NCBI GenBank assembly: GCA_000171835.1
Contig: ABHC01000002.1
Location: forward strand, 124,001 to 188,000
Reading direction: 5' to 3'
Length of the DNA stretch: 64,000 bases
Source of the DNA: an alpha proteobacterium BAL199
Lineage (GTDB): Bacteria; Pseudomonadota; Alphaproteobacteria; Thalassobaculales; Thalassobaculaceae
Part shown: positions 1,166 to 46,236 of the stretch, piece after piece
How the letters are laid out: each line of letters starts with the position of its first letter
Position numbering within the stretch: position 1 is the stretch's first letter
Program-made: the position numbers and the translations under genes
The notes under the pieces: model-generated
Databases searched by the model: none
The model's input: the letters and a program-made list of their open reading frames with translations, nothing else
What the model was told of the DNA's origin: nothing

Positions 1166-1984
1166 ATGCGACGCATAACCGCCGACGAACTCGTAATGGT
1201 ACAAGATCCTTCGGCGGTACCGAAGGATAAGCGTCTTTCGAACGCGTCGCTGCTGATTTTGGTCGGCCTGACCGGCGCGGGCAAGTCTACTACCGTCGAG
1301 CGATTGACCAACGATCTGCCGGTTGCGGCACTCCTGCCCGATCGGCGGTCGGTGACCGACGAGTTGATCCTTCCGATGATGACAGGGAACAGGTCGCCGG
1401 TGTCGGACCGTGTCGAGCGGTTCAGGTTGACGGCGGCGTTCAAGGAACGGCATCCCGGCGGCATGGGCGACGTTCTGCGGTGGCTGACTCTGCCTGCCGT
1501 CCTGCCGTCGGGGGCCATTCTGTTCGACGGGCTGCGGGGCGAAGCGGAGGTTACGTCGGCGTTAGCGTTGCCGGCGGCGCGGTTCCTTGTGCTGGAGTGC
1601 GCGCCGGAGGAACGGCTGTGGCGTCTGTGCGGTCGGAACGACCCCTTCGACGGCACCCATGGTCGTGAAACTGCCGCGACAGGCGAGGGCGCAGAGTCGA
1701 TCCGTGCAGGGCTGGTCGAGCAGAAGTTTGACTCCCTGGTGTCCGGCGATGTGCTCGATCGACTCACGCGGTCGCTGGCTGATCTGAACATCGATCCGGC
1801 TGTCGTGTCGCGCGGCGCGGCGATTATCGTCGAGGAGTCCCGACACTATGACCCTGACGCGGCGACAGCGGCGCTGCGCCGTCTGGCGCCGAACCGAACT
1901 CTGGTGGTTGACACAGCGGCGACCCGGCCAGCTGACGTTGCCGCTGCAGTCGCGGCCAAATGGCCCGACCTGATGGATGTTTAG
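1166..1984 (+). CDS. P-loop NTPase of unknown role
   Basis: 272 residues. A Walker A motif (GLTGAGKSTT) lies at about residues 34-43, preceded by the hydrophobic strand LLILV. A later hydrophobic segment (FLVLECAP) could carry the Walker B strand, but no clear second motif stands out. The C-terminal region ends in a strand (TLVVDTAATRPADVAAAV) resembling the final strand and helix of small nucleotide or phosphate kinases. Start at ATG 1166; the ribosome site is weak. It diverges from the efflux adaptor across a 213-bp gap and is followed 117 bp later by an SDR. The family could be a zeta-toxin-like or kinase-like P-loop protein; the substrate is not predictable. Confidence 0.7.
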   Translation: MRRITADELVMVQDPSAVPKDKRLSNASLLILVGLTGAGKSTTVERLTNDLPVAALLPDRRSVTDELILPMMTGNRSPVSDRVERFRLTAAFKERHPGGMGDVLRWLTLPAVLPSGAILFDGLRGEAEVTSALALPAARFLVLECAPEERLWRLCGRNDPFDGTHGRETAATGEGAESIRAGLVEQKFDSLVSGDVLDRLTRSLADLNIDPAVVSRGAAIIVEESRHYDPDAATAALRRLAPNRTLVVDTAATRPADVAAAVAAKWPDLMDV

Positions 1985-2101
1985 GCGACGCGTGCGCAGG
2001 ACTCGTTCAGATCAGCGTTGGCGTGGGCATTTGCGCCCGGCCCGCTCGACCGCATTGGTGGCCACGTGACGACGATCGAAGAGCGGGCAGGGAGATCAGA
2101 G

Positions 2102-2869
2102 ATGGTGGATGGGGCGGTTTATCCAAGCCTTCAGGATCGGGTGGTGCTGGTGACGGGCGGCGCGTCGGGGATCGGGGCCTCGATCGTCGAGCACTTCTGT
2201 CGGCAGCGGGCGCGGGTGGGCTTCGTTGACTGTGACATCGAAGCAGCCGATGCGTTGATCGCCCGACTGTCGGATGCCGGGCTTGCTGTACCCGCGTTCC
2301 GAGCATGCGACCTGACCGACATCGATGAACTGCGTACCGCAATCGATGCGATCCGGCATGATCTCGGTCGGATCACGGTGCTGATCAACAACGCGGCTCA
2401 CGACGAGCGTCACACCATCGATTCCGTCACGCCAGAGTACTGGGACGACCGGATGGCGGTGAACCTTCGCCATCAGTTCTTTGCAGCGCAAGCGGTATGG
2501 CACGGCATGGCCGAAGCCGGCGGTGGTGCGATTGTGAATCTCGGATCGGTCAGCTGGATGATCGGGCAGGGCGGAATGCCGGGATATTCTGCGGCCAAGT
2601 CGGCAGTGGTCGGCCTGACACGGTCTCTGGCCCGCGATCTCGGTGTACACAACATCCGTGTGAACTCGGTGCTGCCGGGATGGATAATGACCAAGCGCCA
2701 GATCGACAAGTGGCTGACGCCGGAAGGCGAGGCCGAGTTGATGAAAAACCAGTGCCTGAAGCGGAAGCTCGAGCCTGCCGATGTCGCCCGCGTGGTGGTG
2801 TTCTTCGCCTCCGACGAGGCCGCTGCCTGCACCAACCAGAACTACATCGTGGATGGCGGCTGGGTGTAA
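2102..2869 (+). CDS. SDR-family NAD(P)-dependent oxidoreductase
   Basis: 255 residues of a classical short-chain dehydrogenase. The dinucleotide-binding motif TGGASGIG is near residue 20, INNAA is the NNAG-type structural motif, the catalytic Ser lies in LGSVSW, and Tyr and Lys are in YSAAK. The tail DGGWV is typical of the family. I chose ATG 2102 because AGGGAGAT sits about 7 bases upstream; an in-frame start at 2018 would add an N-terminal tail unlike the family. The substrate is unknown. It lies downstream of the P-loop gene and converges on the leftward STAS gene with only 16 bp between stops. Confidence 0.88.
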   Translation: MVDGAVYPSLQDRVVLVTGGASGIGASIVEHFCRQRARVGFVDCDIEAADALIARLSDAGLAVPAFRACDLTDIDELRTAIDAIRHDLGRITVLINNAAHDERHTIDSVTPEYWDDRMAVNLRHQFFAAQAVWHGMAEAGGGAIVNLGSVSWMIGQGGMPGYSAAKSAVVGLTRSLARDLGVHNIRVNSVLPGWIMTKRQIDKWLTPEGEAELMKNQCLKRKLEPADVARVVVFFASDEAAACTNQNYIVDGGWV

Positions 2870-2885
2870 GGCCGCCAGGTCGAGA

Positions 2886-3218
2886 TCAGACCCGGGCGAC
2901 TGCCTCGTCGCGGTTGGCGCAGACGGTCAACACGTTGATGAAGCCGCTGATCTCGAACACTTCGCGGACGTGATTGGTAAGCGAATGCAGGACCAGGCCG
3001 CCGCCGGCAGCCTTCACCCGTTTGGCAACCACCAGAAAGACCCGCAGCCCGGCGCTCGACAGGTAATCCAGCGCAGAGGCATCGACCACGACCCGCTTAT
3101 GTCCGGCCTCGATCTGCGCCACGATCTTGGCTTCCGTGTCGGCGGCGTTGGTGCTGTCCAGCCGTCCGGTCAGGACGACGATGGCCAGGCCGTCCTGGCT
3201 CTCGATGGTCATCGTCAT
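2886..3218 (-). CDS. STAS-domain anti-sigma factor antagonist
   Basis: 110 residues forming a single STAS domain of the SpoIIAA/RsbV type. The conserved loop DYLSSAGLR at residues 51-59 holds the serine (Ser55 by alignment to SpoIIAA) whose phosphorylation by a partner kinase switches binding in this family. It lies 26 bp downstream of, and is co-directional with, a histidine-kinase-fold anti-sigma gene, the usual partner. In known partner-switching modules the unphosphorylated antagonist binds the kinase and frees a sigma factor or another target. No sigma factor gene is visible nearby, so the target may be a different protein, possibly one encoded divergently. Confidence 0.88.
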   Translation of the reverse strand: MTMTIESQDGLAIVVLTGRLDSTNAADTEAKIVAQIEAGHKRVVVDASALDYLSSAGLRVFLVVAKRVKAAGGGLVLHSLTNHVREVFEISGFINVLTVCANRDEAVARV

Positions 3219-3244
3219 GGCGGTGGTACCTCTCGTCTATACGC

Positions 3245-3721
3245 TTAAAGGTTCTTCGTCAGGGTCAGGTGGTTGGTGCCTTGGCGGCGAACGTAGCTCA
3301 GGCCGTCCAGCAGAGTCTTGGCGAAATGGACACCAAGGCCGCCGATCGGCCGGTCTTCAATCGGCGCGTCGAGTTCCGGTGCCTTGGTCTCAACGGTAGG
3401 ATCGAACGGTGTACCCTGGTAGCTGATCTCCATGATCAGACGCTTCCGCTCAAGGCGGAGCATTACGGTCATCTGAAGGTCGGGCGGCGGTGGGTTGTGC
3501 TCGATCGCGTTGGTAATCAATTCGTCGGCGGCCAGGATGATGTGATGCGCCGCGTTCCCCTGCACGCCGTGGCGCGCCGCAAACTTCTCGACCGCCAACG
3601 CCAGTCGCCGAATCTCCGAAATTTGGCTGGCGAGACGCAGGGTTTCTGTCGGTACCATCACATCTGGGAGCAGAAGGCTGGATGCGGACTCGCGGATGCC
3701 GGACTCCGGCGACACGATCAT
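3245..3721 (-). CDS. Anti-sigma regulatory factor, RsbW-type HATPase kinase
   Basis: About 158 residues. The N-box ADELITNAIEHN and the later glycine-rich GGLGVHFAK mark a GHKL ATPase of the RsbW/SpoIIAB serine-kinase type, with no histidine phosphotransfer domain. Such proteins phosphorylate a STAS antagonist, and one is encoded directly downstream. The start is uncertain: ATG 3721 is given; TTG 3751 and ATG 3658 are in frame and none has a good ribosome site. ATG 3658 begins closest to where the conserved domain starts. The gene diverges from the paralog pair, whose first start is about 80 bp away, so the two transcripts share a promoter region. Confidence 0.85.
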   Translation of the reverse strand: MIVSPESGIRESASSLLLPDVMVPTETLRLASQISEIRRLALAVEKFAARHGVQGNAAHHIILAADELITNAIEHNPPPPDLQMTVMLRLERKRLIMEISYQGTPFDPTVETKAPELDAPIEDRPIGGLGVHFAKTLLDGLSYVRRQGTNHLTLTKNL

Positions 3722-3802
3722 CAGAATTGTATATAGGTTTGATGCTCTCAACGCTAGGTGATCCGAGCGACGGAACCAATTCTACGGCGACCAGGCACAG
3801 AC

Positions 3803-4945
3803 GTGAACAAGGCGGATCGGACACGGGCGTCCATGGACGCAATCGACCGACGGATCCTGTCGATCGGACAGGGCGGCGGTGCATTGCCTACCGTGTCTGT
3901 GAACCAGATGATCGCGATGCTCGACACTCACGGACGGGCGGTCCGAGACGCCCGTGCCGATCACCTGACGATCCGCGGTCCGATCTGGCAGTCGGTCGAG
4001 ACGATCTCCAGGCACTTGCAGACATGCTTCTGTCCGTTGGTGCTTGAGCGGTTCGACCGTCTGCTGCCGACGAGCGATCGGACCTTCGCGCAACGTGACG
4101 CCGATGAGGCCTCGCTGATCGACTACGCCGAAGCCGTTGCGGCGGTCTATGCGTGGGAGGCGGCGGTCGGAAAGCACGTCCTGCTGCGATCCGAGATCCG
4201 CAAACGCTTGCAGTCGGTGTCCGCCGCCTGTCTGGCCCGGATCGACGCACATCTGTCGATCGCTGACGAAGCCGACATCCCGGACTTTCGACAACTCGCC
4301 CGGGAGATCCTGCGGGCCGAGGTGGCGGAATGGGTTCTTAGTCTGGCCGGGGCGCCCGAGCATTCCACCAAAATCCTGCAGCGGGCAAGCCGGGCCGCTC
4401 GGCAGTCCGTCGCGTGGGCCGGACGGGTGTTCGAGCGCTTCCGGACCGATCCGGATGAGTTCAGCCATTTCGATGCGGTGGCGACCCTGGCGGCTGTCGA
4501 CGAACTGCTGGTGGTCATTCTGCGGGTTCACGACAGCGACCGGATGGAGCGCGCTTCCGGCAGCCACCCGTTCGTGCTGACGATCGGTGAGCAGGCGCTC
4601 CAGGAGTTCGTAACCGGCCTGGAGCACATGACCGCGCGCTATCTGGAGATCGCGGAAGACCATCTTCTGGCCAGCGGTGCGGCGGGAGCTTTTGTTCTGT
4701 CGGTGTTGCAGGTGCTGCAACGAATTCTGAGACTCGACCATGTCCTGCTCCCCGTCGTGAGCGTGGTGGGGATAGAAATGAGCCACCGGGCGACCGTCGC
4801 GCGCATGGCGGAGATGCGAGCAAAACTCCAGGCTTCGTTGGGAACCCACAAGGCCCCGCCGGACGCCCTGAAGAGGCTGGGAATTCTGGACACAGCGCTC
4901 TCATCGGTCGAGAAGGAGACGGACGAAACGGTTGGGGCGACCTGA
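3803..4945 (+). CDS. Conserved helical protein of unknown family, first of a tandem paralog pair
   Basis: 380 residues from GTG 3803; GTG 3758 is an in-frame alternative adding 15 codons. The protein has no signal peptide or clear membrane segment and reads as mostly alpha-helical. It aligns end to end with the next gene. The best-conserved stretches are HFDAVATLAAVDELLVVILRV and, beyond it, SGSHPFVLTIGEQALQEFV followed by EHMTARYLEIAE. The N-termini match as well (VNKADRTR against VTNADRRR), which is why I place the start here. I do not recognise a family. Divergence from the anti-sigma/STAS pair suggests a role in the same signalling circuit; that is inference. Confidence 0.75.
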   Translation: MNKADRTRASMDAIDRRILSIGQGGGALPTVSVNQMIAMLDTHGRAVRDARADHLTIRGPIWQSVETISRHLQTCFCPLVLERFDRLLPTSDRTFAQRDADEASLIDYAEAVAAVYAWEAAVGKHVLLRSEIRKRLQSVSAACLARIDAHLSIADEADIPDFRQLAREILRAEVAEWVLSLAGAPEHSTKILQRASRAARQSVAWAGRVFERFRTDPDEFSHFDAVATLAAVDELLVVILRVHDSDRMERASGSHPFVLTIGEQALQEFVTGLEHMTARYLEIAEDHLLASGAAGAFVLSVLQVLQRILRLDHVLLPVVSVVGIEMSHRATVARMAEMRAKLQASLGTHKAPPDALKRLGILDTALSSVEKETDETVGAT

Positions 4946-4995
4946 AGGCCGTGCCGGACAGGCGGGCTCCAAAAGGGAGACCAAAGGGGAGAAGT

Positions 4996-6114
4996 GTGAC
5001 GAACGCCGATCGTCGACGGACAACCTTAGAGGCGCTCGAGCGTCAGATCCTGTCGGTTAACCAGGACTTGGCAAGGATGTCTGGCAGCACCCTTTCTGGC
5101 TTCGCTACTGCGCTGGAGGTTCACGCTCGCGAAGTCCGGGCGAGGCTGTCGGGTACGCTGGCCGTCCGCGGCGCGGCCTCCGGTTCGGCGGCTGCGATCG
5201 CCGAACATGCGTTGGCGCGGGCCTGTCCTGTGATCCTGACGCGCTTCGCCGCCTTGTTGCCGATAACGGCCGATGATCACCCGGCAACCCGCGACGCCAA
5301 CGAGGCAACGGCGGTGGAGTATGCGGAGGCGATCGCGGCGATGGCGGGGTGGGAAGCTGCCGTCGGCCCTGACACGCGATTGCGAACTGCGATCCAACAC
5401 CGCCTGTCGACGATAGCTCAGACTTGCCGTAGCTGCATCGAGGGGCATCTGCACGCAGGTAGCGACACTGACATTCCCGACGTCCGGCAATTGGCGGTCG
5501 ACATACTGAGGGTCGAGGCGGTCGAGTGGGTGATCGAGATCGCGGGAGGCTCCAGCCATTCAGAACAGATCCGGCTGTTGACGCACCGTGCTGCCCGACA
5601 ATCGGTGGTCTGGGCGGGCGTGGTGTTCGAGCGGTTCAAGATCCGGCCGGACGAAATGAGTCATTTCGACGCCGTGGCAACACTGTCGGCGGTCGACGAT
5701 CTTCTGGTGGTTATCCTGCGGGTGCTGCAGAGCGATCGCGATGAACGGCGGTCCGGTAGCCATCCGTTCGTTCTGACGATCGGTGAGCAGGCAATGCAGG
5801 ATTTCGTAAATGGGCTTCGGCACATGACCGGCCGCTATCTCGATATCGCCGAGCAACACCTGTTGAGCGCTGGTGCCGCGGGGGACTTCGCCCAATCGGT
5901 TCTGCGGGTCCTGCACCGCGTTCTGTTGTTTGGTCACGCGCTGCTGGCGTCAGTTGAGCTCGTGGACATCCGCTTGAACCACGAAACCGCCTTGACGCGG
6001 ATGGTGGGGATGCGGGCAAAGCTGCAGGCGTCCCTCGACATGCCGGGGGCATCGGAGCGCTATCTCACGCGGTTGCAGGTGCTGGACGTCGCCCTGCGCG
6101 ACGTTGGCGCATGA
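4996..6114 (+). CDS. Conserved helical protein of unknown family, second of a tandem paralog pair
   Basis: 372 residues. GTG 4996 is chosen because GGGGAG sits about 6 bases upstream; GTG 4951 is in frame and would add 15 codons. It is paralogous to the preceding gene throughout, most strongly over the C-terminal half (HFDAVATLSAVDDLLVVILRV; SGSHPFVLTIGEQAMQDFV). In the middle, W(E/E)AAVG and the DIPD-RQLA segment are also shared. The gene follows its paralog after 50 bp and is probably co-transcribed with it. No catalytic motif, membrane segment or known domain was recognised. Tandem duplication followed by N-terminal divergence is the likely origin. Confidence 0.75.
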   Translation: MTNADRRRTTLEALERQILSVNQDLARMSGSTLSGFATALEVHAREVRARLSGTLAVRGAASGSAAAIAEHALARACPVILTRFAALLPITADDHPATRDANEATAVEYAEAIAAMAGWEAAVGPDTRLRTAIQHRLSTIAQTCRSCIEGHLHAGSDTDIPDVRQLAVDILRVEAVEWVIEIAGGSSHSEQIRLLTHRAARQSVVWAGVVFERFKIRPDEMSHFDAVATLSAVDDLLVVILRVLQSDRDERRSGSHPFVLTIGEQAMQDFVNGLRHMTGRYLDIAEQHLLSAGAAGDFAQSVLRVLHRVLLFGHALLASVELVDIRLNHETALTRMVGMRAKLQASLDMPGASERYLTRLQVLDVALRDVGA

Positions 6115-6262
6115 CTGAACGGACCAACTCGCGACGGCGGTCAGAATCGGCTCTCAGCCTGCGGTGTGTTCGGAAGTTAGAGCGGTAGATGGAGACACCT
6201 GTTAACAACACCGCAACTGCCGGACAGGATTGGTCGCACAGCCAGGTGAGACGCCGCCACTG

Positions 6263-7021
6263 ATGACAGACATCAACATATTGGCGTTGACCCGCCTCCA
6301 ACCGGTACGCAGTGACGTTGACCTGCACCATCTCACGCCGAGATCGTTTGATCGATTTGAACTGATCGGCGGAGCGCCGGGGATTCATTTGGGCCTGGAT
6401 GACAGCGGCTTTCCCGGCGTGCGGGAGATGTATGAACGCTACCACCGTTCGGTCTTCACGGCGCTGGTCTGTCGTCTGGATGCCGACGGTCTGTTCGTTC
6501 CGACGATCGATCTCTGGAACTGGTCGTCCACCGCGCTGTATCTGATCGCGGCGCAGGCTGGCGCGCTTTCGGACTCGGCTTGGCAGTCCGTTGAAGCCGG
6601 CACGGTGTCCGCCCTTTGCGACAATCATTCCTGGAGCACCCTGCGGGACATCCTGGAACTCGGTGGCGCCCCGATCCGCGACGACGAACGCGGCGCTGCG
6701 GAGGAACTCAAGGCGGACTGGAGCCGTCGCGGTTGGCTGGATGCCCTGTACGATCGCGACAGATCCGCTCTCAGCGAAATGCTTCGTGCCTTGCGAATGG
6801 CGTGCCCGATCTTGTCGGCCCAGATGGATCTGTTCTTCCTGCCGCCCGAGTTCCTCGAGTCTGTTCGGCGTGACTTGAGCGGTCGGCTGATGTCGGCGGG
6901 TCTCTCTGGTTTCACCTATAAAAGCGCCTCCGGAAACGGTGATGCGATCCTGGTTGTCGATCCGTCCGCCATCCGTATCGTGTCCCGGCAGCCTCTGACT
7001 GCTGCCGGGACCGGTTCCTAG
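6263..7021 (+). CDS. Hypothetical protein downstream of the paralog pair
   Basis: 252 residues from ATG 6263; TTG 6230 is an in-frame alternative. The protein has no recognised domain, signal peptide or membrane segment. The N-terminal third contains LTRLQPVRSDVDLHHLTPRSF and a Trp/Tyr-rich stretch (IDLWNWSSTALYLIAAQAG). The middle carries many acidic and arginine residues (RDDERGAAEELKADWSRRGW), and the C-terminal part reads as a mixed alpha/beta fold ending GDAILVVDPSAIRIVSRQP. It is co-directional with the paralog pair, 148 bp downstream, so shared transcription is possible but not shown. A sensory or signalling role is only suggested by context. Confidence 0.65.
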   Translation: MTDINILALTRLQPVRSDVDLHHLTPRSFDRFELIGGAPGIHLGLDDSGFPGVREMYERYHRSVFTALVCRLDADGLFVPTIDLWNWSSTALYLIAAQAGALSDSAWQSVEAGTVSALCDNHSWSTLRDILELGGAPIRDDERGAAEELKADWSRRGWLDALYDRDRSALSEMLRALRMACPILSAQMDLFFLPPEFLESVRRDLSGRLMSAGLSGFTYKSASGNGDAILVVDPSAIRIVSRQPLTAAGTGS

Positions 7022-7125
7022 CTTCTCTACCCCTGCCGGGAAATCCGCCTAAGATCGCCGCCCCATCACTGTTGCGTCCGCGTGTATGTTGCGGCGCGGA
7101 TCCGACTCCATCAGAGGAAACCACT

Positions 7126-8202
7126 ATGAAGACGCATCGTATCGCGAGCATTCCAGGCGACGGCATCGGCTCCGAGGTGATTTCGGCTGGCGTCGAGGTC
7201 CTGAAAGCGGTGGCGCTGCGTGACGGTGGGTTCACGTTAGACGTCGAAACTTTCCCCTGGGGGGCCGACTACTACCGGGCGAACGGCGTGATGATGCCGG
7301 AGGATGGTGTCGACACCCTTCGCGCGTTCGATGCGATCTATTTCGGCTCGGCCGGTGATCCGCACCTGCCGGATCACATCACCTTGTGGGGCCTTCGGCT
7401 GAAGATCTGCCAGACTCTGGACCAGTACGCCAATGTACGGCCGTCGCGGCTGCTGCCGGGCATCGACGGGCCGTTGAAAGGCGTCGGGCCAGATCGGCTC
7501 GACTGGGTGATCGTGCGGGAGAACTCCGAGGGTGAGTATTCCGGGGCCGGCGGGCGGGTCCACCAGGGGCTGCCGGAAGAGGTCGGCCTGGACGTATCGG
7601 TGTTCACCCGTGTCGGCGTCGAGCGGATCCAGCGCTTCGCCTTCGAGTTGGCGCGCAGCCGGCCACGCAAACTGCTGACCCTGGTGACCAAGTCGAACGC
7701 GCAACGCCACGGCATGGTGTTCTGGGACACCGTGTTCGACGGCATCAAGGGCGACTACCCGGATGTGCGCACCGACAAGATGCTGGTCGATGCCATGACG
7801 ACCCGCATGGTCCTGAAACCGGAGAGCCTGGATACAGTGGTCGCGACCAACCTGCACGCCGACGTGCTGTCGGACCTGGCGGCGGCATTGTCCGGTTCGC
7901 TCGGCATCGCTCCCACCGGGAACCTGCGGCCCGAGCGCGACGGGCCGTCGATGTTCGAACCGATCCACGGCTCGGCCTTCGACATCATGGGCCAGGGCAT
8001 CGCCAACCCGATCGGTTCGTTCTGGAGTGCAGCCATGATGTTGGAGCACATCGGTGAGCCTCAAGCGGCCGCGCGCCTGATGGCTGCGGTTGAACGGGTC
8101 ACTGGAGCCGGCAAGACGATGCCACGGGATCTTGGCGGCATGGCGACGACCCGTCAGGTTACCGATGCCGTGCTGGAGGCGTTGCGCACCGACAACGTCT
8201 GA
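7126..8202 (+). CDS. Isocitrate/isopropylmalate-type dehydrogenase, tartrate/D-malate dehydrogenase-like
   Basis: 358 residues. The start motif IASIPGDGIGSEVI is the family N-terminus, and the metal and substrate region VTKSNAQRHGMVFWDTVF carries the conserved lysine. VATNLHADVLSDLAAALSGSLGIAPTGN and FEPIHGSAFDIMGQGIANPIG are the cofactor-side signatures. The substrate loop (LPDHITLWGLRLKICQTLDQYANVRP) is of the TtuC/DmlA type rather than LeuB or Icd. Members oxidise tartrate, D-malate or related 2-hydroxyacids with NAD and metal and then decarboxylate. ATG 7126 is preceded by AGAGGA at good spacing. The gene stands alone between unrelated genes. Confidence 0.85.
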   Translation: MKTHRIASIPGDGIGSEVISAGVEVLKAVALRDGGFTLDVETFPWGADYYRANGVMMPEDGVDTLRAFDAIYFGSAGDPHLPDHITLWGLRLKICQTLDQYANVRPSRLLPGIDGPLKGVGPDRLDWVIVRENSEGEYSGAGGRVHQGLPEEVGLDVSVFTRVGVERIQRFAFELARSRPRKLLTLVTKSNAQRHGMVFWDTVFDGIKGDYPDVRTDKMLVDAMTTRMVLKPESLDTVVATNLHADVLSDLAAALSGSLGIAPTGNLRPERDGPSMFEPIHGSAFDIMGQGIANPIGSFWSAAMMLEHIGEPQAAARLMAAVERVTGAGKTMPRDLGGMATTRQVTDAVLEALRTDNV

Positions 8203-25496: not shown

Positions 25497-26926
25497 GGGG
25501 ATGTCCCTCGCCGTGTTGAAATTTGCTCGGCAGGCGCTGTTGGTTGACGATGCTATGCGGCGACCGCCTGCTGTTCAAGGTCGTGGTTGATCGCGTTCCT
25601 GTCCTGGTGGGCCGCCAGGGCTCGGCGCAGGCTCGGGAGTTGCTTGTGGGCCTTGAGGCGGCGGAAACCCTTGGCGGCCTCGAGCATGGCAGCGGCGGTC
25701 CAGCGCAGCGCCATGGCCGCGTCCTGCCAGCGTTTGACGTTGCGGCAGACCCGGCGGACGGTTCCGTTCATGTTCTCGATGATGTTGGTGCAGGCGAGCG
25801 ACCGGCGTAGTTCGACTGGCAGACCGAGGCGGGTGACGGTGAGGATCTCGTCGAGGCCCTCCAGGATGCTGGCCGACACGCCCGGGGCGTCGCGCTCCAG
25901 GCGACGGGCGAGGTTGCGGATCAGCTTCTCGGCCTTGTCGGCGTCGTCCAGTTCCCAGGCCTGACGCAGCGCCTTGCGGACGCCGGCCTGCAAGGACTTG
26001 GGCAGGCGCTCTGCGATGTTGCGGGCCTTGTGGACCTGGCAGCGCTGGATCGGGGTGTCGCGGCCGAAGGTGTTGCGAATCGCCTTCGACAGCGCCTTGG
26101 CGCCGTCGATGATGAACAGTCGGCAGACCGCGGGATCGAGGCCGCGGCCGACCAGGTTGTCGAGCAGCGCCTGGGCCACGGCGGCGTTCTCGCTGGCCCC
26201 CTCGATCACGCCGAGCGGATGCTTGTCGCCGATGCCGTCGATGCCGACGGCGGCCAGCAGCATCAGGTCTTCCTCGATGTGGATGCCGTCGATCTGGATC
26301 GCCAGCAGGTCCAGGGCGGACAAGTCGGCGGCCATCCATTCCTTCATGCGTTCCGCCGACAGCGCCACGAACCGCCGCGACACCGCCGACTTCGACACTC
26401 CCGACCCGGGGGCCGCCGGGATGTCGCCGCCCGGCAGGCGGACGGCGCGGCCGAACTTGCGGGTCGAGACGTTGATCAGCATCAGGTTCAGCGCCCACTT
26501 GCCGAGCAGGTCTTCCGACTGCGCCGCCTCCCAGCTCGGCAGCGCCAGCTCGCCGCCGTCGCGAGCACGAACGCGAGGACGATCGATCTCGACCTTGCCG
26601 CCGTGGAAGCCGACCTTCCCCTTGGTCTTGCCCCAGCGATACCCGTCTCGCCCAGCAGCCCGGCCGTAGCGCGGGCCGCACAGCTCGGCCGCCTCCTCAT
26701 CCATCATCGTCGCCAAAGTCGCCAGGCCCGCCGTCAGGCAGAAACGATCGAAGCTGGCTCCGACTTCCTGCCAAGCCTCATCGACGATTGCCGCCGGCAC
26801 CACGCCGGCAGATCTGGTAGCTTTCTTCATGGCGTTGCTCTCCTTCGCGGATTCGACACCCCGAGCCTAATGGCTCAAGGCGGGCAACGCCTGCTCCCCT
26901 ATTTCAACATCGACCGGGACATACCC
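25497..26926 (-). mobile_element. IS256-family insertion sequence, complete (1430 bp)
   Basis: Both ends are defined. The left end reads GGGGATGTCCC and the right end, inverted, reads GGGTATGTCCC. The imperfect inverted repeats extend about 45 bp, sharing TGTTGAAAT and GCAGGCG further in. Identical 8-bp duplications flank it. One transposase gene, transcribed leftward, fills most of the element. The duplication is intact and the transposase frame is open, so the insertion looks recent and the element may be active. Confidence 0.93.
25553..26830 (-). CDS. IS256-family transposase
   Basis: 425 residues, full length for the family. The DDE triad can be placed at Asp181 (IQIDGIH), Asp242 (FIIDGAKAL) and Glu352 (NIIENMNG), with the family marker CQVHKARN between the second Asp and the Glu. 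The N-terminal GYRWGKTKGKVGFHGGKVEI segment is usual for Mutator-type transposases. The start is ATG 26830, about 95 bases inside the right end. The frame is intact with no missing catalytic residue. Confidence 0.95.
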   Translation of the reverse strand: MKKATRSAGVVPAAIVDEAWQEVGASFDRFCLTAGLATLATMMDEEAAELCGPRYGRAAGRDGYRWGKTKGKVGFHGGKVEIDRPRVRARDGGELALPSWEAAQSEDLLGKWALNLMLINVSTRKFGRAVRLPGGDIPAAPGSGVSKSAVSRRFVALSAERMKEWMAADLSALDLLAIQIDGIHIEEDLMLLAAVGIDGIGDKHPLGVIEGASENAAVAQALLDNLVGRGLDPAVCRLFIIDGAKALSKAIRNTFGRDTPIQRCQVHKARNIAERLPKSLQAGVRKALRQAWELDDADKAEKLIRNLARRLERDAPGVSASILEGLDEILTVTRLGLPVELRRSLACTNIIENMNGTVRRVCRNVKRWQDAAMALRWTAAAMLEAAKGFRRLKAHKQLPSLRRALAAHQDRNAINHDLEQQAVAA

Positions 26927-26934
26927 CCGACCTG
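26927..26934. repeat. 8-bp target-site duplication, right copy
   Basis: CCGACCTG directly after the right end of the element, identical to 25489-25496. Confidence 0.9.
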
Positions 26935-27705
26935 CGCACTGCGGTGTTTCGGAACGCCAACCTTGAGGGTGCGCGGTTTGCCGGCTGCAAGGCGGCGAAT
27001 GCCGATTTTCGCGGCGCCATCCTGACCGATGTCTATCTGGAGGACTCCGATTTCGCCGGAGCCGATCTAACCGGCGCGATCATCGACATAGCGCTTCTGG
27101 ACCACCCCGCCCTGCACAACGCCACCAAGCCGATGACCGAGCAGGAGGCCGGGCTGGATCTCCCAGCTCTTCTTGCGGACCATAAGGTTTGGGTCGAAAC
27201 CAACGCGGCAAGCGGGTCGCGTCTGGTGCTCACCGGAATGATGCTGCTCAGACAGGACTGGGCGGGCAGCTCGCTGGCGGCGGCATCGCTGCGCAATATG
27301 GTTCTGTTCTCGTCGAATTTGACCGGGGCATCGATGGCGCTGGCCGATCTGACCGGCACCGATCTGCGCCAGTCGAACTTGCGATCCGCTGATCTGCGTG
27401 GCGCGACGTTGAACGATGCACACTTGAACGACGCCGATCTGCGCGGTGCGAATCTCGGTCCTCTGGCGGTTAGCGTGCGTGGCCGGGAGATCGGGGCGAA
27501 TGCGGTTGCGGCCTCGCTGGTCGGAGCGCGACTCGAAGGCGCCAAACTTATGGGCATGAACTTCAGCAGTGCCGACCTGCGTCGTGTGGATCTGACGGAT
27601 GCCGATCTGACCGGAGCGGTGTTGCGCGGCGCAATGCTGGAGGGTGCTCGTCTGCAAGGGGCAGTCCTTGATGGCGTCGATCTCGACGGCGCCCGAGGGC
27701 TCTGA
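26935..27705 (+). pseudogene. Pentapeptide-repeat protein, 3' part, after the insertion
   Basis: 256 codons plus stop, in frame with the 5' part once the element and one duplication are removed. Two blocks of pentapeptide repeats (NLEGARFAGCKAANADFRGA onward; then SNLTGASMALADLTGTDLRQ onward) are separated by a non-repeat region around LPALLADHKVWVETNAASGSR. A last block ends ADLTGAVLRGAMLEGARLQG. A GTG at 26944 could allow internal initiation, but there is no strong ribosome site. The stop lies two bases before the histidine kinase start, so the two genes were probably one transcript. The central DUF-like region resembles that of PilZ-linked or signalling pentapeptide proteins only vaguely. 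Confidence 0.88.
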
Positions 27706-27707
27706 CG

Positions 27708-28874
27708 ATGGTGCAGGTGGGCAACATCGCTCAGCCGCTGGACGACCGGACGATCGTTGCCGGTGGTGGAGTGTCGATCGAGGCGCTGCCCGCTGCGGTT
27801 ATCGTGTTGAGCAACGACCGGATCGTTGACGTCAACACCTTCGGACTTCGTTTGGCTGGTGCAATCGACCGATCGGAACTGATTGGCCGGACGTTTGCTG
27901 AGGTGGTCGTGGTCGGTGACCCGGTGTCAGCTGATCTCGAGAATGCTGCCGCGTCTGACGGCGCCGGGACGCGATGGAGACACGCACTGATCCGTCCCAT
28001 CGCCGGAAACGCGGCTCCGGTATTGGTATCCCAAGGTCCGGATTGGATGGTTGATGGTCAGACCACCCGCTTGCTCCTTCTGGTCCCGTCGATGTCAGAC
28101 GGCAACGAGGCATTGGACGCTGACGCCCGCCATGAGGCTCGTGGTAGAATTGCCGACGTCTTTGCCAATCTGGCGCATGAGATGCGCACTCCGCTCAACG
28201 CGGTCATCGGGTTTGGTGAGATACTGGTCGGCGAACACTTCGGTCCCCTGGCGGCGCGCTACAAGGACTATTCTCGCGATATCGTAGGGGCCGGCTATCA
28301 CCTGCTGGCCCTGGTGAACGGCGCCCTCGACCTGGGCCGAGCGAGCGCTGGTCCAGACACTTTGGACGAACGCCCGGTGGAGTTGCGTGCGGTCCTGACG
28401 TCGACCATCGCCATGCTGCAACGTTCGGCGACTCTCAAATCCATCACCGTGGAGGTCGCCGACCTGGCCGGATTGCCGTTGATCTACGCCGACGAAACCC
28501 GAATGCGACAGCTTTTCGTCAACCTCGTAAGCAATGCCATCAAGTACTCGCCGGTTGGACGAGGTGTGACGATCAAACACTGGATCGAGGACGACGGACA
28601 GGTGTGCATAGACGTGGTTGATGGTGGCGTCGGTATGTCGATTGACGAGGTTGCCATAGCGCTTCTGCCGTTCGGTCGTACCGAATCTGCAATGCGAACC
28701 GGCGAAGCGGGGACCGGGCTTGGCCTCCCGATCTGCAAGGCGATCGTTGAAGCGCACGGCGGTCGACTGACGATCGACAGCGCCCCGAGGCGGGGGACCA
28801 CCATTTCGGTGGTTCTCCCGGCGAACCGCCTGGTGGCAGCACCCGGGCACGGCGGTCTGCTCAACCTCCTATAG
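27708..28874 (+). CDS. Soluble PAS-domain histidine kinase linked to the pentapeptide-repeat gene
   Basis: 388 residues, no membrane segment. Residues 20-125 form a PAS-like domain (LPAAVIVLSNDRIVDVNTFG). HisKA follows with LAHEMRTPLNA and His157. The HATPase has the N-box LFVNLVSNAIKYS and G-boxes DGGVGMS and GTGLGLPICKAIVEAHGG. ATG 27708 lies two bases after the pentapeptide-repeat stop, implying translational coupling. The IS element upstream may exert polarity on it, unless a promoter within the element or the 3' fragment serves it. No cognate response regulator is adjacent. Confidence 0.9.
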   Translation: MVQVGNIAQPLDDRTIVAGGGVSIEALPAAVIVLSNDRIVDVNTFGLRLAGAIDRSELIGRTFAEVVVVGDPVSADLENAAASDGAGTRWRHALIRPIAGNAAPVLVSQGPDWMVDGQTTRLLLLVPSMSDGNEALDADARHEARGRIADVFANLAHEMRTPLNAVIGFGEILVGEHFGPLAARYKDYSRDIVGAGYHLLALVNGALDLGRASAGPDTLDERPVELRAVLTSTIAMLQRSATLKSITVEVADLAGLPLIYADETRMRQLFVNLVSNAIKYSPVGRGVTIKHWIEDDGQVCIDVVDGGVGMSIDEVAIALLPFGRTESAMRTGEAGTGLGLPICKAIVEAHGGRLTIDSAPRRGTTISVVLPANRLVAAPGHGGLLNLL

Positions 28875-28948
28875 CGCGATCCGACAATCATTGTTCCATC
28901 GCCGATCGGCGGGCATCATCGCGTTCGCCTGCACGCTCGGAGGATGGC

Positions 28949-30130
28949 ATGACCCGGATCGATCGCGTTGAGGTTCACGAGTTTGGATTCGATGCGGTGA
29001 ACCTCGGCCGTGTAGCCGAGGGTGGCAGCATCGGTTCGCTCAGCTACCGTAAGGGGGCAACGTCGCGGATCTCAAAGTATGCGGTTCGGATCCAGACCGA
29101 GGACGGGTGCCGCGGCGAGTACGTGACCCATTGGGTGGCATCGCCCTCGGCGTTGGGGCAAACCCTGATGCTGGCCCCGCTGCTGGTCGGACGGCACGCC
29201 GAACAGCGCGAAGGAATTTGGGACGATTTGAAGCGCGAGGCTCGGCAGTTCGACCATATGGGCCATGGACCGATCGACATTGCCCTGTGGGATTGGACCG
29301 GCAAGCAGTTGGGATGCTCGATTTCGACGCTGCTGGGCGCGCATCGTGAACGCCTGCCAGCCTACGCCTCGACCTACCACGGCGACCGCGACGGTGGCCT
29401 GGACAGCCCGGAGGCATTCGGCGAGTTCGCGCTGCAGTGCCGGCAGATGGGGTACCGGGCCTTCAAAGTGCATGGCTGGCATGAAGGGGATCGTCGGGAG
29501 GAAGCGGCCAACGTCCTGAAGGTCCGGGAGATGGTCGGCGACACCATGACCCTGATGCTCGACCCGGCGTGCGAGCTTCGGACGTTTGCCGACGCTTTGT
29601 ACGTCGGCCGCGCGTGCGATGATGCCGATTATTTCTGGTACGAGGACCCGTTCCGGGACTCCGGTGTGTCGGCGTTTGCGCATAAGCGGCTGCGCGAGAT
29701 GATCAGAACCCCGATCCTGCAGACTGAGCACATCCGCGGCGTCGAGCCGAAGGCGGATTTCCTGATCGCCGGCGGCACGGACTTCCTACGATCCGATCCT
29801 GAGTACGACATGGGCATTACTGGTGCGATGAAAATCCATCACCTGGCCGAGGCGTTTGGGATCGACGTCGAAGTGCACGCCGCCGGTCCGGCGCATCGCC
29901 ATGTGATGGCAGCGACCCGCAATAGCAATTACTACGAGGTTGCGCTGGTGGGCCCCGACTGCCCGAACGCGGTGCCGCCGGTCTACACCTGCGGTTACAC
30001 CGATCAACTCGATTGTGTCGGCACCGATGGCTGCGTTCCGGTCCCGACCGGCCCAGGCCTGGGAGTGGTCTATGACTGGGACTTCATTGAGGCGAATCGC
30101 ACCCGGTACGAGGTGTTCGAGAACCGATGA
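28949..30130 (+). CDS. Enolase-superfamily protein, mandelate racemase/dehydratase-like
   Basis: 393 residues. The C-terminal barrel carries the metal ligands Asp205 (MLDPACE), Glu232 (WYEDPF) and Glu260 (QTEHIRG). On the second strand Lys173 and His175 (FKVHG) stand where many relatives have KxK, and His310 (EVHAAGP) is a candidate base. This fits an acid-sugar dehydratase rather than a racemase, but the substrate is unknown. ATG 28949 has GGAGGA about 5 bases upstream. It is followed by an IS630 remnant and the leftward vgrG gene. Confidence 0.82.
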   Translation: MTRIDRVEVHEFGFDAVNLGRVAEGGSIGSLSYRKGATSRISKYAVRIQTEDGCRGEYVTHWVASPSALGQTLMLAPLLVGRHAEQREGIWDDLKREARQFDHMGHGPIDIALWDWTGKQLGCSISTLLGAHRERLPAYASTYHGDRDGGLDSPEAFGEFALQCRQMGYRAFKVHGWHEGDRREEAANVLKVREMVGDTMTLMLDPACELRTFADALYVGRACDDADYFWYEDPFRDSGVSAFAHKRLREMIRTPILQTEHIRGVEPKADFLIAGGTDFLRSDPEYDMGITGAMKIHHLAEAFGIDVEVHAAGPAHRHVMAATRNSNYYEVALVGPDCPNAVPPVYTCGYTDQLDCVGTDGCVPVPTGPGLGVVYDWDFIEANRTRYEVFENR

Positions 30131-30156
30131 CTGCACCATGTTCGATCCGCCTTTTG

Positions 30157-30385
30157 TCAAAAGCGTCTGACGGCGGCGAGGATCTCGTCGGCTGACGTGG
30201 CCCAATGATAGGCATTGGCTGTAGGTTGTGGATCTTGATGAAGGTCTGGATATCGGCTTCCAGTTGGCACACCGAAGTGTGAGCTCACGCTGGATCTGCT
30301 TTCGGGCCAGCTCGGCGAACCGGCGTTCGACCCGGTTGATCCAGAAGGCGATGTCGGAGTGATGCGGACCTGATAGCGCGGTCGT
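30157..30385 (-). pseudogene. IS630-family transposase, decayed C-terminal fragment
   Basis: On the leftward strand one frame reads SDIAFWINRVERRFAELARKQ, a second frame continues TSVCQLEADIQTFIKIHN, and a third ends YHWATSADEILAAVRRF and stop. Put together these match the C-terminal end of IS630-type transposases (conserved catalytic Glu in NRVERRF). At least two frameshifts separate the pieces, and the N-terminal part is absent. The rest of the 336-bp gap between 30131 and 30466 shows no other gene. Confidence 0.72.
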
Positions 30386-30466
30386 CAGGCCAGCCATGTC
30401 CTGCTGAGAACCCTTCGACAATCCCAACGAGCGCAAGGTAGTGAAGCCAACGTCAGCTCCGTATGA

Positions 30467-32899
30467 CTAGTTCAGGTTGATGATGCCGCCCTTCACGGTC
30501 AGCGCGCCGCCACCGTCGACGGTGCCGCTGGCGGAGCCTTTGATCGACATTGTTGTTCCGCCCTGAAGGTCGAGAGCGGTCCCGGCCTTGCCGGTAAGCC
30601 CGGTGCCGCTGGAGATAGTCATGCTGGACCCTGCCTTCACCGTCGTCGACCCACCGGCCTTCGCGGTCATCGACCCGTCGGCATCCATCGTCATGTCTCC
30701 GTGGGACTTGAGGGTCATGTCCCCGTGGGAGGTGAGTGTCATGTTGCCACTGGTGTCGATACTCACGTCGCCGGTGACCTTGATTGTCAGCTTGCCACCG
30801 ACGGTCTGGATGTAGTCGGTGCCGGTTTTCAGATTCGCTGCTGCTGCCGCGACGATGTCGACATTGCCCTTGGTGGCAGTCGCCGGCACCGAGTTGTCGG
30901 TCAGGGTGGCTTTCGACGCCTCGATGCTGACGCCCTGGGCGATGACCTGGTACTGCGTCTTTGCCACTGTGAAGTGGTTGGTGGCGCTCATCCGTCGGTC
31001 GGCAACGACGTAATCCAGGCGGTTGGCGCCGACCTGGCTGTAGCTGGCACCGTCGATCAGCGAGGTGCGGTCGCCGGCGGTGTACTCGAAGAAACCGGCG
31101 TCGCCGGCGTCATCACCTCCCGTCATGTTCGACATGTCGGCCGTGCGGCTGTCCTCGGTGCTGTCGGTCGGCTTCGAGCCGAGCCGCCAGTAGCTGTCGG
31201 TGCCAGCGGTTACCTGAAGTCGGGCGTAGGACGAGGTCGCGCCACTGGAGGATTCGGTGCTCGACTCCGGGCGTTGCGTAGCAAGGGACTGAGTGACGGT
31301 CGGCCGTTCCAATGCGGGTCCCTCCAGGGCCCGTTGCGGTGCCAGGGTGGCACCTGAGGATGCCCCGCTTCCGCCACCACCGCTGGCCGGGCCGTCGTCG
31401 ATCTCGAACAGGGTTCCGGCGGTGGTTCGCATGCGGTTCTTGGTATTGCTCTGGGCATTCACCACGCTCGGATACGGCTCGTTTTGCATGGCGCCGACAA
31501 TGACCGGCCGGTCCGGGTCGCCGTTTACGCATGCCAGGATCACCTCGGTGCCCTTGAGCAACGGGAAGTGCATGCCGGAGTTGACGCCACCATAGGGTTC
31601 GGACTTGCGCATGTAGCGAGAGGCCTGGCCGGCAGCCTCGCCGCGCTGGTCGAACTGCTGGCGGATCTTATAGCGACCGGTCGCATCCAGTTCGGCACGC
31701 TGGCCGGAGCCGGCGGCATCGACAACGGCGTTCGACAACCCGGACATGCGCGGCTTCGGGGTCCTGCGAACGGGGCGAAAGTCGACCGTTTTCGGCAAGC
31801 ATCCGAATCGGTTGCGGTAGGCACTCTGGTGGCCTGGCCCAGTAAAATCGGCGATTCCAGGCAGTGCCTGCGTCGCCTCGTGCTCGACCCAAGTCAGCAG
31901 GTACCCGGCGTTGAAGCCGTTGCGGAAGTGGCCCGTCAGGGAGAAGACGCCGCCGGCAATCATGTGGACGTCGTCGCTTTCGCCCTGGAACACCTGCTTA
32001 CGGCAGAGCAACTCCTGTGCCCGCACCCGAGCAAGGTCCCGGCCCTCCTGTGGCGTTCGGAAATGTGCGCCGAACTCGACGACGACTCCGTGGCCCTTCG
32101 GGTCGACCGGTTCGCTGACCTCCAGCGTCAGATTGGGGGTGCGGTAGTTGTAGTCGCGCAGGCAGATCTGCGACGGCAGCAGGCTCGAACGGCCGGAAAA
32201 CCGGAAGACGGCCGCGTCCCCGGCGTTCGTCAGGCCGCTGGCCGGTCGGTAGGCGACGTTGCCCGGGCCGCCGATCTGCGGGAACGCGACCCGGTAGTCG
32301 CCGAACACCGCAATGTCGCGGCCGCTGTCGTGAGTGAAGTAGTAGAAGATGCCGTAGTGCTCGCACAGCCGCGAGATGAACGACAGATCGCTCTCGTCGT
32401 GCTGCACGATGTAGTCGCGCTTCGGGTAGGTCTGGCTCAGTCGGAGCTCGAAGTCGTTGGTGTTGAGGCGGCCGGAGACCGAGGAGGCGGGGCCGCCCTT
32501 CAGGTTGCTCGCCGATAACTGCTCGGTGAGCACCTCGCGCACCGACACCGGTACCGCTGTTCCGTGGATCTGATTCTGCCTGGACAGTTCGAGCCGCTGC
32601 AGCCGCGGCACCAGCACCGCCTTGTAAATGTAGTGCGACCGCGGCGTGGCGGCGTGCAGTTCGATGCTCTCGAGCATGCCGTGCACTTTGCGGGTCTGCT
32701 CCAGACGGGTGACCGTGAGCGTGGCGTCCTTGCCGGCTAGGGCGTCAAGAGACAGGTTCGGGTCGTCGGACACCAGATCGACCTCGAAACGGAACATCTC
32801 CGATATCGCCTCACGGCCGGACATCCGAAACACCGCGAAGGTGTCCGCGGGCTGGTCGTCCACGATGAACTCCAGCTTCTGTGCGTAACTGTTCGCCAT
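30467..32899 (-). CDS. vgrG: Type VI secretion spike protein VgrG
   Basis: 810 residues. Residues 1-350 are the gp27-like VgrG N-terminal domain (RFEVDLVSDDP; VSVREVLTEQL; DESDLSFISRLCEHYGIFYYF). About 430-500 is the gp5-type OB fold (MHFPLLKGTEVILACVNGDPD, VIVGAMQNEPYPS). The C-terminal 170 residues form a repetitive beta-helix needle (GDMTLKSHGDMTMDADGSM). VgrG tips the contractile needle and can carry effectors. The start is ATG 32899, with GTG 32902 adjacent. No other T6SS structural gene is in the window, so this is an orphan spike island. Downstream lies an IS630 remnant where an effector gene might be expected. Confidence 0.93.
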   Translation of the reverse strand: MANSYAQKLEFIVDDQPADTFAVFRMSGREAISEMFRFEVDLVSDDPNLSLDALAGKDATLTVTRLEQTRKVHGMLESIELHAATPRSHYIYKAVLVPRLQRLELSRQNQIHGTAVPVSVREVLTEQLSASNLKGGPASSVSGRLNTNDFELRLSQTYPKRDYIVQHDESDLSFISRLCEHYGIFYYFTHDSGRDIAVFGDYRVAFPQIGGPGNVAYRPASGLTNAGDAAVFRFSGRSSLLPSQICLRDYNYRTPNLTLEVSEPVDPKGHGVVVEFGAHFRTPQEGRDLARVRAQELLCRKQVFQGESDDVHMIAGGVFSLTGHFRNGFNAGYLLTWVEHEATQALPGIADFTGPGHQSAYRNRFGCLPKTVDFRPVRRTPKPRMSGLSNAVVDAAGSGQRAELDATGRYKIRQQFDQRGEAAGQASRYMRKSEPYGGVNSGMHFPLLKGTEVILACVNGDPDRPVIVGAMQNEPYPSVVNAQSNTKNRMRTTAGTLFEIDDGPASGGGGSGASSGATLAPQRALEGPALERPTVTQSLATQRPESSTESSSGATSSYARLQVTAGTDSYWRLGSKPTDSTEDSRTADMSNMTGGDDAGDAGFFEYTAGDRTSLIDGASYSQVGANRLDYVVADRRMSATNHFTVAKTQYQVIAQGVSIEASKATLTDNSVPATATKGNVDIVAAAAANLKTGTDYIQTVGGKLTIKVTGDVSIDTSGNMTLTSHGDMTLKSHGDMTMDADGSMTAKAGGSTTVKAGSSMTISSGTGLTGKAGTALDLQGGTTMSIKGSASGTVDGGGALTVKGGIINLN

Positions 32900-33022
32900 C
32901 ACCTAATGACCCCTGTGCGATCTCGGACATCCGCTCGGACGATCCACTCGAGATGGTTTCAATTTCGCTAAAATGTGATGACGTTGCTGCGTTTTCGGGA
33001 AGACCGGTATACCGGCGGCGGC

Positions 33023-33688
33023 CTAACGGGCGGCTCGGCCAGTCTGCTTATCGTCTATGTACTGGACGACCGACACGACCTCGCCTTTATCGTCGAACTC
33101 CATCTCCGGACCGTTCTTCATGCCGAATTCGTACATCGTGCGGCGGATCAGGTGTCCTTCGCCGTCGAAATCTTCCGTTGGGCCGTGCGGCAGGTCGTCC
33201 TCGAAGGCGATGGTGCGCTGGTACGAACCGTCGGGTCGAAAGACCGAGGTGACGCCCTGCCGGAGACCGGCGACGTACGGTGTAACCATCGCGATCGCGC
33301 CGGCCTCGCTGTAATTGTACAGGTTGCCGTCCAGGACGTCGGCCGCGTAGCTGGCGTGCAAAACCCGGCGTCCCTTGGCGTAGATCACGCAGGGCCCGTT
33401 GCGCGCGCCGTTGACATAGCGCGCCTTGGCGGTAACCCGGCCTTCCGTATCGTAGTTGACTGCCACCCCATGGAGGACGCCTTGCTGGTATTCGGCCTCG
33501 CGGATCAGTCGACCGGCGTCGTCATACTGGCAAAACGGACCATGCAGCACGCCGCTGGCAAACGTCGCGGTCTCGACCACCACGCCAGCATCGTTCACGC
33601 GTGTCACGACGCCATGGAGCCGGCCGACGCCGTCGCCACTGTCGGAGGATGCCACGCTTTCTATCTGGTCCTGGGTAGCCTGATCCAT
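33023..33688 (-). CDS. YwqK/MORN-repeat-like protein in the vgrG island
   Basis: 221 residues built of repeated units of about 22 residues such as GVLHGPFCQYDDAGRLIREAE and GVLHGVAVNYDTEGRVTAKA. The G-x-x-x-G-P/V-x-x-x-Y-D/T-x-x-G-R pattern is that of MORN_2/YwqK repeat proteins. YwqK-like proteins are known as antitoxins or accessory proteins next to secreted toxins, and they occur in VgrG neighbourhoods. The gene lies between the DUF4280 gene and vgrG, same direction, with 120 bp to vgrG. An immunity or effector-loading role is inferred from position only. Confidence 0.78.
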   Translation of the reverse strand: MDQATQDQIESVASSDSGDGVGRLHGVVTRVNDAGVVVETATFASGVLHGPFCQYDDAGRLIREAEYQQGVLHGVAVNYDTEGRVTAKARYVNGARNGPCVIYAKGRRVLHASYAADVLDGNLYNYSEAGAIAMVTPYVAGLRQGVTSVFRPDGSYQRTIAFEDDLPHGPTEDFDGEGHLIRRTMYEFGMKNGPEMEFDDKGEVVSVVQYIDDKQTGRAAR

Positions 33689-33728
33689 GGTGCGAAACCT
33701 AGCAGTCTCGGAACAACGCGCGTAGGCG

Positions 33729-33756
33729 ATTCAGCGGGCCCCAGAGCGCGCTGAAT
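33729..33756. terminator. Hairpin between the DUF4280-like and YwqK-like genes
   Basis: ATTCAGCG and CGCTGAAT form an 8-bp stem around a 12-base loop. No T-run follows on either side, so it may be a processing or weak termination structure. Confidence 0.35.
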
Positions 33757-33833
33757 GGCTGGAGGCTTCGTCGATCGGGAATTGGGATCGGGCATTGGCA
33801 CGACGCGCCTCCCGACCAGTTCTAGGCGGGTTC

Positions 33834-38026: not shown

Positions 38027-38031
38027 TTGAC

Positions 38032-46049: not shown

Positions 46050-46236
46050 CGACGACCGTTACAGGTTTCAGGGCGGTGGCAGGTCTCCTGGCTCGCGCGT
46101 CCCGGCGTCTCATCCAGCCTTCCCAGCAATGCCAGTGGCCGTGTGGATGACGCTCAGCGCTCACAGTTGCGGGGGCAGCCACGGACTCGCTCCCTGTTGG
46201 GTACGCTTCACCGTGTTCCCTATTATGCCGTCGTCG
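46050..46236 (-). ncRNA. Cobalamin riboswitch
   Basis: On the leftward strand the conserved elements appear in order: AGGGAACACGGTGAAG, CCGTGGCTGCCCCCGCAACTG, CCACTGG, GGGAAGGC and the B12 box AGCCAGGAGACCTGCC. The ends pair as P1 (CGACGAC at 46230-46236 with GTCGTCG at 46050-46056). The element lies 25 bp upstream of hupE. Directly after it the 3' P1 strand can also form a hairpin (GGTCGTC-GGGTG-GACGACC, 46039-46057) that abuts the hupE ribosome site, so P1 and this hairpin exclude each other. This would link cobalamin level to metal import. Confidence 0.93.

Follow-up and report, generated by a model that had tools for sequence, protein, structure and literature searches.

A sigma-less partner-switching locus in an alphaproteobacterium, with a helical protein family as its possible client

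The window considered here is the whole 64,000-nucleotide stretch analysed from the alpha proteobacterium BAL199 (contig ABHC01000002.1, positions 124,001 to 188,000), the source genome assembly of which amounts to 6.1 Mb. Near its start, a gene pair encoding a STAS protein and an RsbW-type HATPase is divergent from two tandem paralogous genes, A and B, with the whole unit lying within positions 2886-6114. The family of the two paralogs is named FAM here. FAM very probably belongs to a partner-switching module. The reading favoured here, with a probability of about 0.5, is that FAM is the non-sigma client or output of a switch that lacks a sigma factor, being held by the HATPase and released when the STAS protein binds the HATPase. 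This role is suggested by several loci in which FAM and the HATPase adjoin and the fetched stretch contains no STAS, just as sigma factors remain paired with their anti-sigma factors.

The switch proteins are of a known kind (STAS, HATPase and SpoIIE), and the new component is the helical family beside them. Since FAM keeps its place next to the HATPase when loci are rearranged, and in some genomes forms part of a kinase fusion, it provides a concrete candidate target of a Gram-negative partner switch, for one lineage. If true, this would give the first functional frame for an uncharacterised family, including its members beside nifH in 40 loci. A review of STAS-only proteins lists several Gram-negative partner switches, Rba, Syp and Hmp, among the systems whose targets are not known (PMC8256260).

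The switch proteins and the paralog family

Eight proteins of the window, those between 1166 and 8202, were scanned for family matches. The STAS protein matches PF01740 (E 5e-18) and TIGR00377 (E 1e-19), both over the cut-off, and its relatives in the PDB are SpoIIAA-type chains. The adjacent serines S54 and S55 (codons 3054-3059), within the motif YLSSAGLR, are its candidate phospho-acceptors; the SSAGLR portion is kept in 13 of the 13 STAS proteins aligned, with five further STAS proteins left unaligned. It is the only free-standing STAS protein found in its own genome, as the other three of the four PF01740 matches reside in frames of 495-598 amino acids.

The HATPase is a member of the RsbW/SpoIIAB fold family. 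It matches PF13581 over the cut-off (E 6e-18), a PDB comparison with its alignment places RsbW first (6m36, E 1.8e-12), and the best Foldseek match of its predicted fold is SpoIIAB (1l0o, E 3.5e-8), the mean predicted local distance difference test (pLDDT) being 82. The NCBIfam models of RsbW score below their cut-offs against it. The original prediction, made from the letters of the window, had placed a STAS antagonist and an RsbW-type protein divergent from two tandem paralogs, and this arrangement is borne out by PF01740, PF13581 and the 52% identity of A and B over 370 columns. Its statement that no sigma factor is encoded nearby also holds, with none of the eight proteins in 1166-8202 matching a sigma-factor family.

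A and B have no match over the cut-off in Pfam, NCBIfam or PADLOC, and the other FAM members tested likewise match no named family. Comparison of FAM profiles with PDB sequences gave nothing significant (E 0.018 or worse). On the lack of matches in the family databases, a metabolic, toxin-antitoxin or defence family was rejected for A and B; a match to a known metabolic family had been named at the outset as an observation that would speak against a new system, and there is none. Within open-licence PMC text, no paper was recognised as describing FAM.

The paralogs had been called helical, and the AlphaFold2 model of B, built from eight sequences, agrees: it is predicted to be all-helical, with 13 helices, a pLDDT of 85 and a predicted template-modelling score of 0.75. 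The best Foldseek match of this model has an E value of 1.2e-3, with designed proteins among the top rows, and the best VIA match has a Z of 10.6, whereas the tool sets its level for helical bundles at about 13. The fold searches yield helical-repeat arrangements, namely cullin, armadillo and designed-repeat rows. As these scores fall below the tool's own telling level for helical proteins, no clear fold relative is claimed for B.

The window's genus is GTDB genus g1, which comprises the source genome (G000) and two congeners, G001 and G002. An ortholog of A is present in G001 and pairs with A in the FAM tree, while close relatives of B adjoin HATPase-STAS in both congeners. The duplication that gave rise to A and B falls within this genus in the tree. 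The ratio of nonsynonymous to synonymous substitution (dN/dS, NG86 method) against the G001 orthologs is alike for A (0.32), B (0.26) and the HATPase (0.33) and is lower for STAS (0.14). To judge from these ratios, A, B and the HATPase are under purifying selection.

Distribution and neighbourhoods of FAM genes

The search for FAM members took no account of neighbour genes, and the genome counts given here include the source genome. FAM is present in nine of 98 relatives, in two draws from the class (12 genomes of 387 and 11 of 385), in 46 of 82 genomes of family f52 and in all four genomes of the order of G163. Two draws from the phylum, in which the share of genomes from other classes was not given, yielded two genomes of 397 and one of 398, these being only the source genome and G086, both within the class. 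FAM is carried by seven family-level groups of one class (f1, f16, f52, f57, f61, f116 and f128). Two queries against plasmid records gave no FAM match. In each genome, the searches scored only some of the candidates from the first look (4 or 5 in the class and phylum draws, 23 in the f52 search), and distant members may have been missed.

After the removal of duplicates, 88 FAM domains in 85 loci were tallied; locus L092 was dropped as the same locus as L018, and the two matches in G816 were counted as one gene. The domains fall into four kinds. In the first, 22 domains are near an HATPase or a STAS gene, with an HATPase within 5 kb in 21, STAS in 16 and a SpoIIE phosphatase in six. In the second, 17 domains are fused behind a Hanks-type kinase, with an HATPase within 500 bases in 13 and TssM, a component name confirmed in one locus (TIGR03348), within 5 kb in 15. 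The kinase was identified by PF00069 in three scanned fusions, and by a model built from those three in the remainder. The third kind consists of 42 domains that adjoin nifH and/or draG (nifH within 5 kb in 40, draG in 41), and the fourth of the seven remaining domains, which have none of these links.

As the first kind is itself defined by proximity to an HATPase or STAS, the fair count takes the FAM tree and sets its nif clade aside. The tree holds 62 of the 88 domains, which are all of those without nif links and 16 of the 42 with them, the kinase fusions being cut to their last 345 codons. The nif clade has a support of 100 and also takes in four of the seven domains of the fourth kind. 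Outside this clade, an RsbW-type HATPase is located within 5 kb of 34 of 42 FAM domains (within 500 bases of 28), and either an HATPase or a STAS gene is within 5 kb of 35. As a background, each of 16 genomes of approximately 4-7 Mb carries one to five PF13581 matches with E below 1e-10, from which the proximity expected by chance is estimated at about 1% or less. In 15 of these 16 genomes, no PF13581 match is better than the HATPase linked to FAM; in G050, the top match is some 32 kb away from FAM. The recurrence beside STAS and HATPase genes that was to be looked for in other genomes is therefore present.

The HATPase and FAM also keep together where STAS does not. The two abut with no STAS found in the fetched stretch of L018, L044, L107 and L117, and in 12 loci of the type VI secretion system (T6SS) the kinase-FAM fusion is next to an HATPase in the absence of STAS. 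In G086, STAS and the phosphatase are some 10-11 kb away from FAM, and in G050 a run of HATPase, STAS and phosphatase genes is about 30 kb from the kinase-FAM gene. A single HATPase is accompanied by two FAMs in the window, in a congener (L013) and in L044, where a free FAM and a kinase-FAM flank it. The order of the FAM and HATPase genes varies by clade and may be divergent, co-directional or split. In the HATPase tree, the HATPases beside kinase-FAM genes occupy two places, one in f52 and one in f16, which hints at recruitment on more than one occasion; the tree comprises 140 columns and the f16 row has a long branch. Loci with a kinase-FAM fusion and an RsbW-type HATPase, mostly beside TssM, are L044, L093-L095, L100, L103, L118-L122 and L151, with L051 and L020 noted alongside them.

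At 20 FAM loci, 140 further neighbour proteins were scanned, leaving out those shorter than 70 or longer than 900 amino acids and the FAM, HATPase and STAS genes themselves; SpoIIE is the commonest family, with seven members against six for the next families. The 25 commonest of the 143 families matched include no sigma-factor family, sigma factors elsewhere in the genomes not having been searched for. The phosphatase is linked to FAM in G005, G034, G151 and four genomes of f128.

The nif/draG loci are all in family f52 (L021, L045, L087-L091, L096-L099 and others). In the 40 loci with nifH, FAM is always on the nifH strand and upstream of nifH. The names of nifH and draG were confirmed in L045, that of draG in L021, and that of nifD was also confirmed; neither of two nif-linked FAM members tested received a name from Pfam or NCBIfam. 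Between FAM and draG is a gene without an NCBIfam name in the usual place of draT, and it is so named by position only. By its draG-nifH order, genus g63 of f52 presumably resembles Azospirillum.

Proposed mechanism and competing readings

The genes, their co-occurrence, the domain identities, the conserved serines of STAS and one strong unlinked SpoIIE match are observed, and a mechanism can be proposed around them. The strong match is a SpoIIE phosphatase on contig C55 of the source genome (PF07228, E 4e-49), with two weak matches elsewhere. Taken as the cognate phosphatase, this enzyme would dephosphorylate STAS at S54/S55. The free STAS protein would then bind the RsbW-type HATPase, which is presumed to hold FAM physically until that point and would now let it go. 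Free FAM, placed downstream of the HATPase rather than upstream, would then serve as a helical adaptor for some target further down the pathway. In the kinase-FAM fusions of T6SS clusters, the same contact between HATPase and FAM could gate the Hanks-type kinase. The direction of the switch is likewise a proposal.

An ABC-type substrate-binding protein (PF04392) and the divergent gene of an unknown protein adjoin the C55 phosphatase, and this cluster is a possible input side of the switch. The phosphatase and this divergent gene recur in G001, G002, G026 and G030. The PF04392 gene adjoins the phosphatase in the source genome, G002, G026 and G030, while G001 has only some 300 bases there; the G002 phosphatase is called in two pieces.

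The kinase step of the switch is itself in question in the window's genus. The N-box (E67, N71) and G2 box (G127-G130) of the HATPase are present and intact across the genus. The G1-box aspartate is replaced by Tyr101 (codon 3419-3421). It is replaced in three of three genomes of the genus (Tyr, His and Tyr) and kept in 29 of 29 other HATPases, including that of G030, which belongs to another GTDB genus (g12); of the HATPases not beside FAM, L161 was left out of this count and L157, about 32 kb from a kinase-FAM gene on the same contig, was kept among the 29. In GHKL enzymes, this aspartate contacts adenine and its loss abolishes ATP binding. With this residue replaced, the HATPase of the window may be a pseudokinase. 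The RsbW-type kinase that was originally proposed stands as regards its fold family, but its kinase activity may be absent. In this genus, the switch may dispense with ATP-dependent phosphorylation or bind nucleotide in an altered way.

A first competing reading follows this line, and states that the switch of the genus is independent of phosphorylation, with the kinase step lost and a pseudokinase HATPase sequestering FAM or STAS by mass action. It is tentative, with somewhat less than an even chance, and is compatible with FAM as a client or as a scaffold. Together with the aspartate replacement, the search of the source genome with PF13581 speaks for it, as the window HATPase is far ahead (E 1.6e-17) and the next match, in a frame of 792 amino acids, is far weaker (E 3e-6). 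Against it stand the intact STAS serines, the retained N-box and G2 box and the strong SpoIIE match on another contig, as does the purifying selection on the HATPase (dN/dS 0.33).

The main rival to the client reading is that FAM belongs to the module but is not its output. FAM would be a scaffold or input adaptor on the HATPase or STAS, and the true output would be STAS itself or an unlinked sigma factor. In the cited parts of two sources, STAS is proposed as the output in the known sigma-less systems of RbaV, SypA and HmpV (PMC8256260, PMC3999984), and both the patchy distribution of FAM and its predicted helical-repeat-like shape would suit a scaffold. Nevertheless, the HATPase is near FAM more often than STAS is (34 versus 17 of 42 within 5 kb), and fusion to a kinase suits an output-side domain better. 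The scaffold is regarded as less likely than the client. That the genes are unrelated and neighbours by chance has next to no likelihood and is rejected on the neighbourhood tallies and the FAM tree. Gene order does differ among clades, which would speak for chance, but an HATPase lies within 5 kb in 34 of 42 cases against an estimate of about 1% or less.

Several observations weigh against FAM as the client. Outside the nif clade, the shares with STAS (17 of 42) and SpoIIE (six of 42) within 5 kb are low, and many rows come from one genus, so the 34 are not independent events. No HATPase is present in the fetched stretch of L105, L106 and L174, nor of the kinase fusions L020, L111, L115 and L172, while L113, near a contig end, has STAS only. 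The fetched stretches of the 42 nif/draG loci contain no HATPase or STAS, and with the four domains added by the tree the branch without either comprises 46 FAM domains. Wide occurrence of the paralogs without such neighbours had been named as evidence against the original prediction; within the stretches fetched, this large branch counts against it, whereas 35 of the 42 domains outside the branch have one or the other. The possible loss of kinase activity in the window's genus counts in the same direction. FAM, which the two class draws recovered in 12 and 11 genomes, is too patchy to be the general output of partner switches. Finally, co-occurrence cannot tell a target from a scaffold or a sensor.

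A more far-reaching proposal would make FAM a portable helical capture domain: the long-missing non-sigma client of RsbW-type HATPases in one alphaproteobacterial lineage, which also gates Hanks-type kinases of T6SS clusters and was co-opted beside nifH, with the g1 HATPase as a pseudokinase that has two FAM clients in a switch without a kinase step. This is a little less likely than the scaffold.

The unit resembles the RsbV/RsbW/SigB and SpoIIAA/SpoIIAB/SigF switches in its STAS antagonist, HATPase_c_2 protein, SpoIIE-type phosphatase and HATPase fold. Unlike these, it lacks a sigma factor, a helical FAM adjoins the HATPase, and the G1-box aspartate is gone in the window's genus. The threonine-phosphorylation pathway of the T6SS is formed by PpkA and PppA, which is similar in having a Hanks-type kinase within a T6SS cluster beside TssM. 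The kinase described here differs in carrying a FAM domain, and an RsbW-type HATPase usually comes after it. The SiaABC/SiaD pathway of Pseudomonas acts on the diguanylate cyclase SiaD, and the component families differ; a weak Foldseek match of the HATPase to SiaB-SiaC was obtained (6kko, E 0.01). As far as the cited parts of two studies go, that pathway is alike in being one of protein phosphorylation with a non-sigma output (PMC7647112, PMC8457831). The RbaV/RbaW/RbaY system of Rhodobacter capsulatus is also an alphaproteobacterial set of STAS, HATPase and PP2C proteins, for which the cited part of the study reports that a cognate sigma factor was not found (PMC3999984). That part argues for RbaV as the determinant regulator and does not mention a FAM-like gene.

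Limits of the unit and other features of the window

The features of the locus are listed in Table 1. The likely GTG starts of A and B were placed by comparison with ortholog N-termini, and a purine-rich stretch upstream also served for B; the longer starts of the first open reading frames (ORFs) are at 3758 (A) and 4951 (B).

Table 1. Coordinates of the partner-switching unit, the ORF that follows it and the unlinked phosphatase cluster.
Feature	Position	Strand	Basis or remark
STAS protein (anti-sigma-antagonist type), 110 amino acids	2886-3218	-	PF01740, TIGR00377
RsbW/SpoIIAB-type HATPase, 158 amino acids	3245-3721	-	PF13581; RsbW/SpoIIAB relatives
Divergent intergenic region, HATPase / paralog A	3722-3802	.	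Gene starts (start of A inferred)
Paralog A of helical family FAM, 380 amino acids	3803-4945	+	GTG start inferred
Paralog B of FAM, 372 amino acids	4996-6114	+	GTG start inferred
Third ORF, orphan, coding-like composition	6263-7021	+	Present in own genome only, among 61 searched
SpoIIE phosphatase, PF04392 protein and unknown divergent protein	L152:5569-10113 (G000:C55)		

The third ORF had been included in the module at first. No relative of it turned up in the 60 other genomes that were searched, and both congeners lack a counterpart at the equivalent site; it was rejected as a component on these grounds, and the unit therefore ends at 6114. The flanking genes encode an AAA/kinase-like protein, a short-chain dehydrogenase and a relative of isocitrate/isopropylmalate dehydrogenase.

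The EcfG-like promoter GGAAC-N15-18-GTT has eight matches in the window against 5.6 expected, and none inside the module. Between 2800 and 7200, there are five terminator-like sites against 2.9 expected (standard deviation 1.6), none of which is clearly at a gene end, and one sigma-70-like site against a mean of 0.8 in shuffles. This sole site, at 3807-3779 on the minus strand, is located at the intergenic region of the HATPase and A, although its number is as in shuffles.

Elsewhere in the window, positions 25553-34223 hold a VgrG-like protein (30467-32899), a DUF4280 protein, MORN and pentapeptide-repeat proteins and a Mutator transposase, with a histidine kinase and an enolase-family gene in between. 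This region looks like a T6SS spike cluster, some 24 kb from the module. A TonB-plug receptor, a YfiR-like protein and a CHASE8-HAMP histidine kinase are encoded in a row at 36083-40223 on the plus strand, and a cobalamin riboswitch (RF00174, E 1e-28) is present at 46061-46273 on the minus strand.

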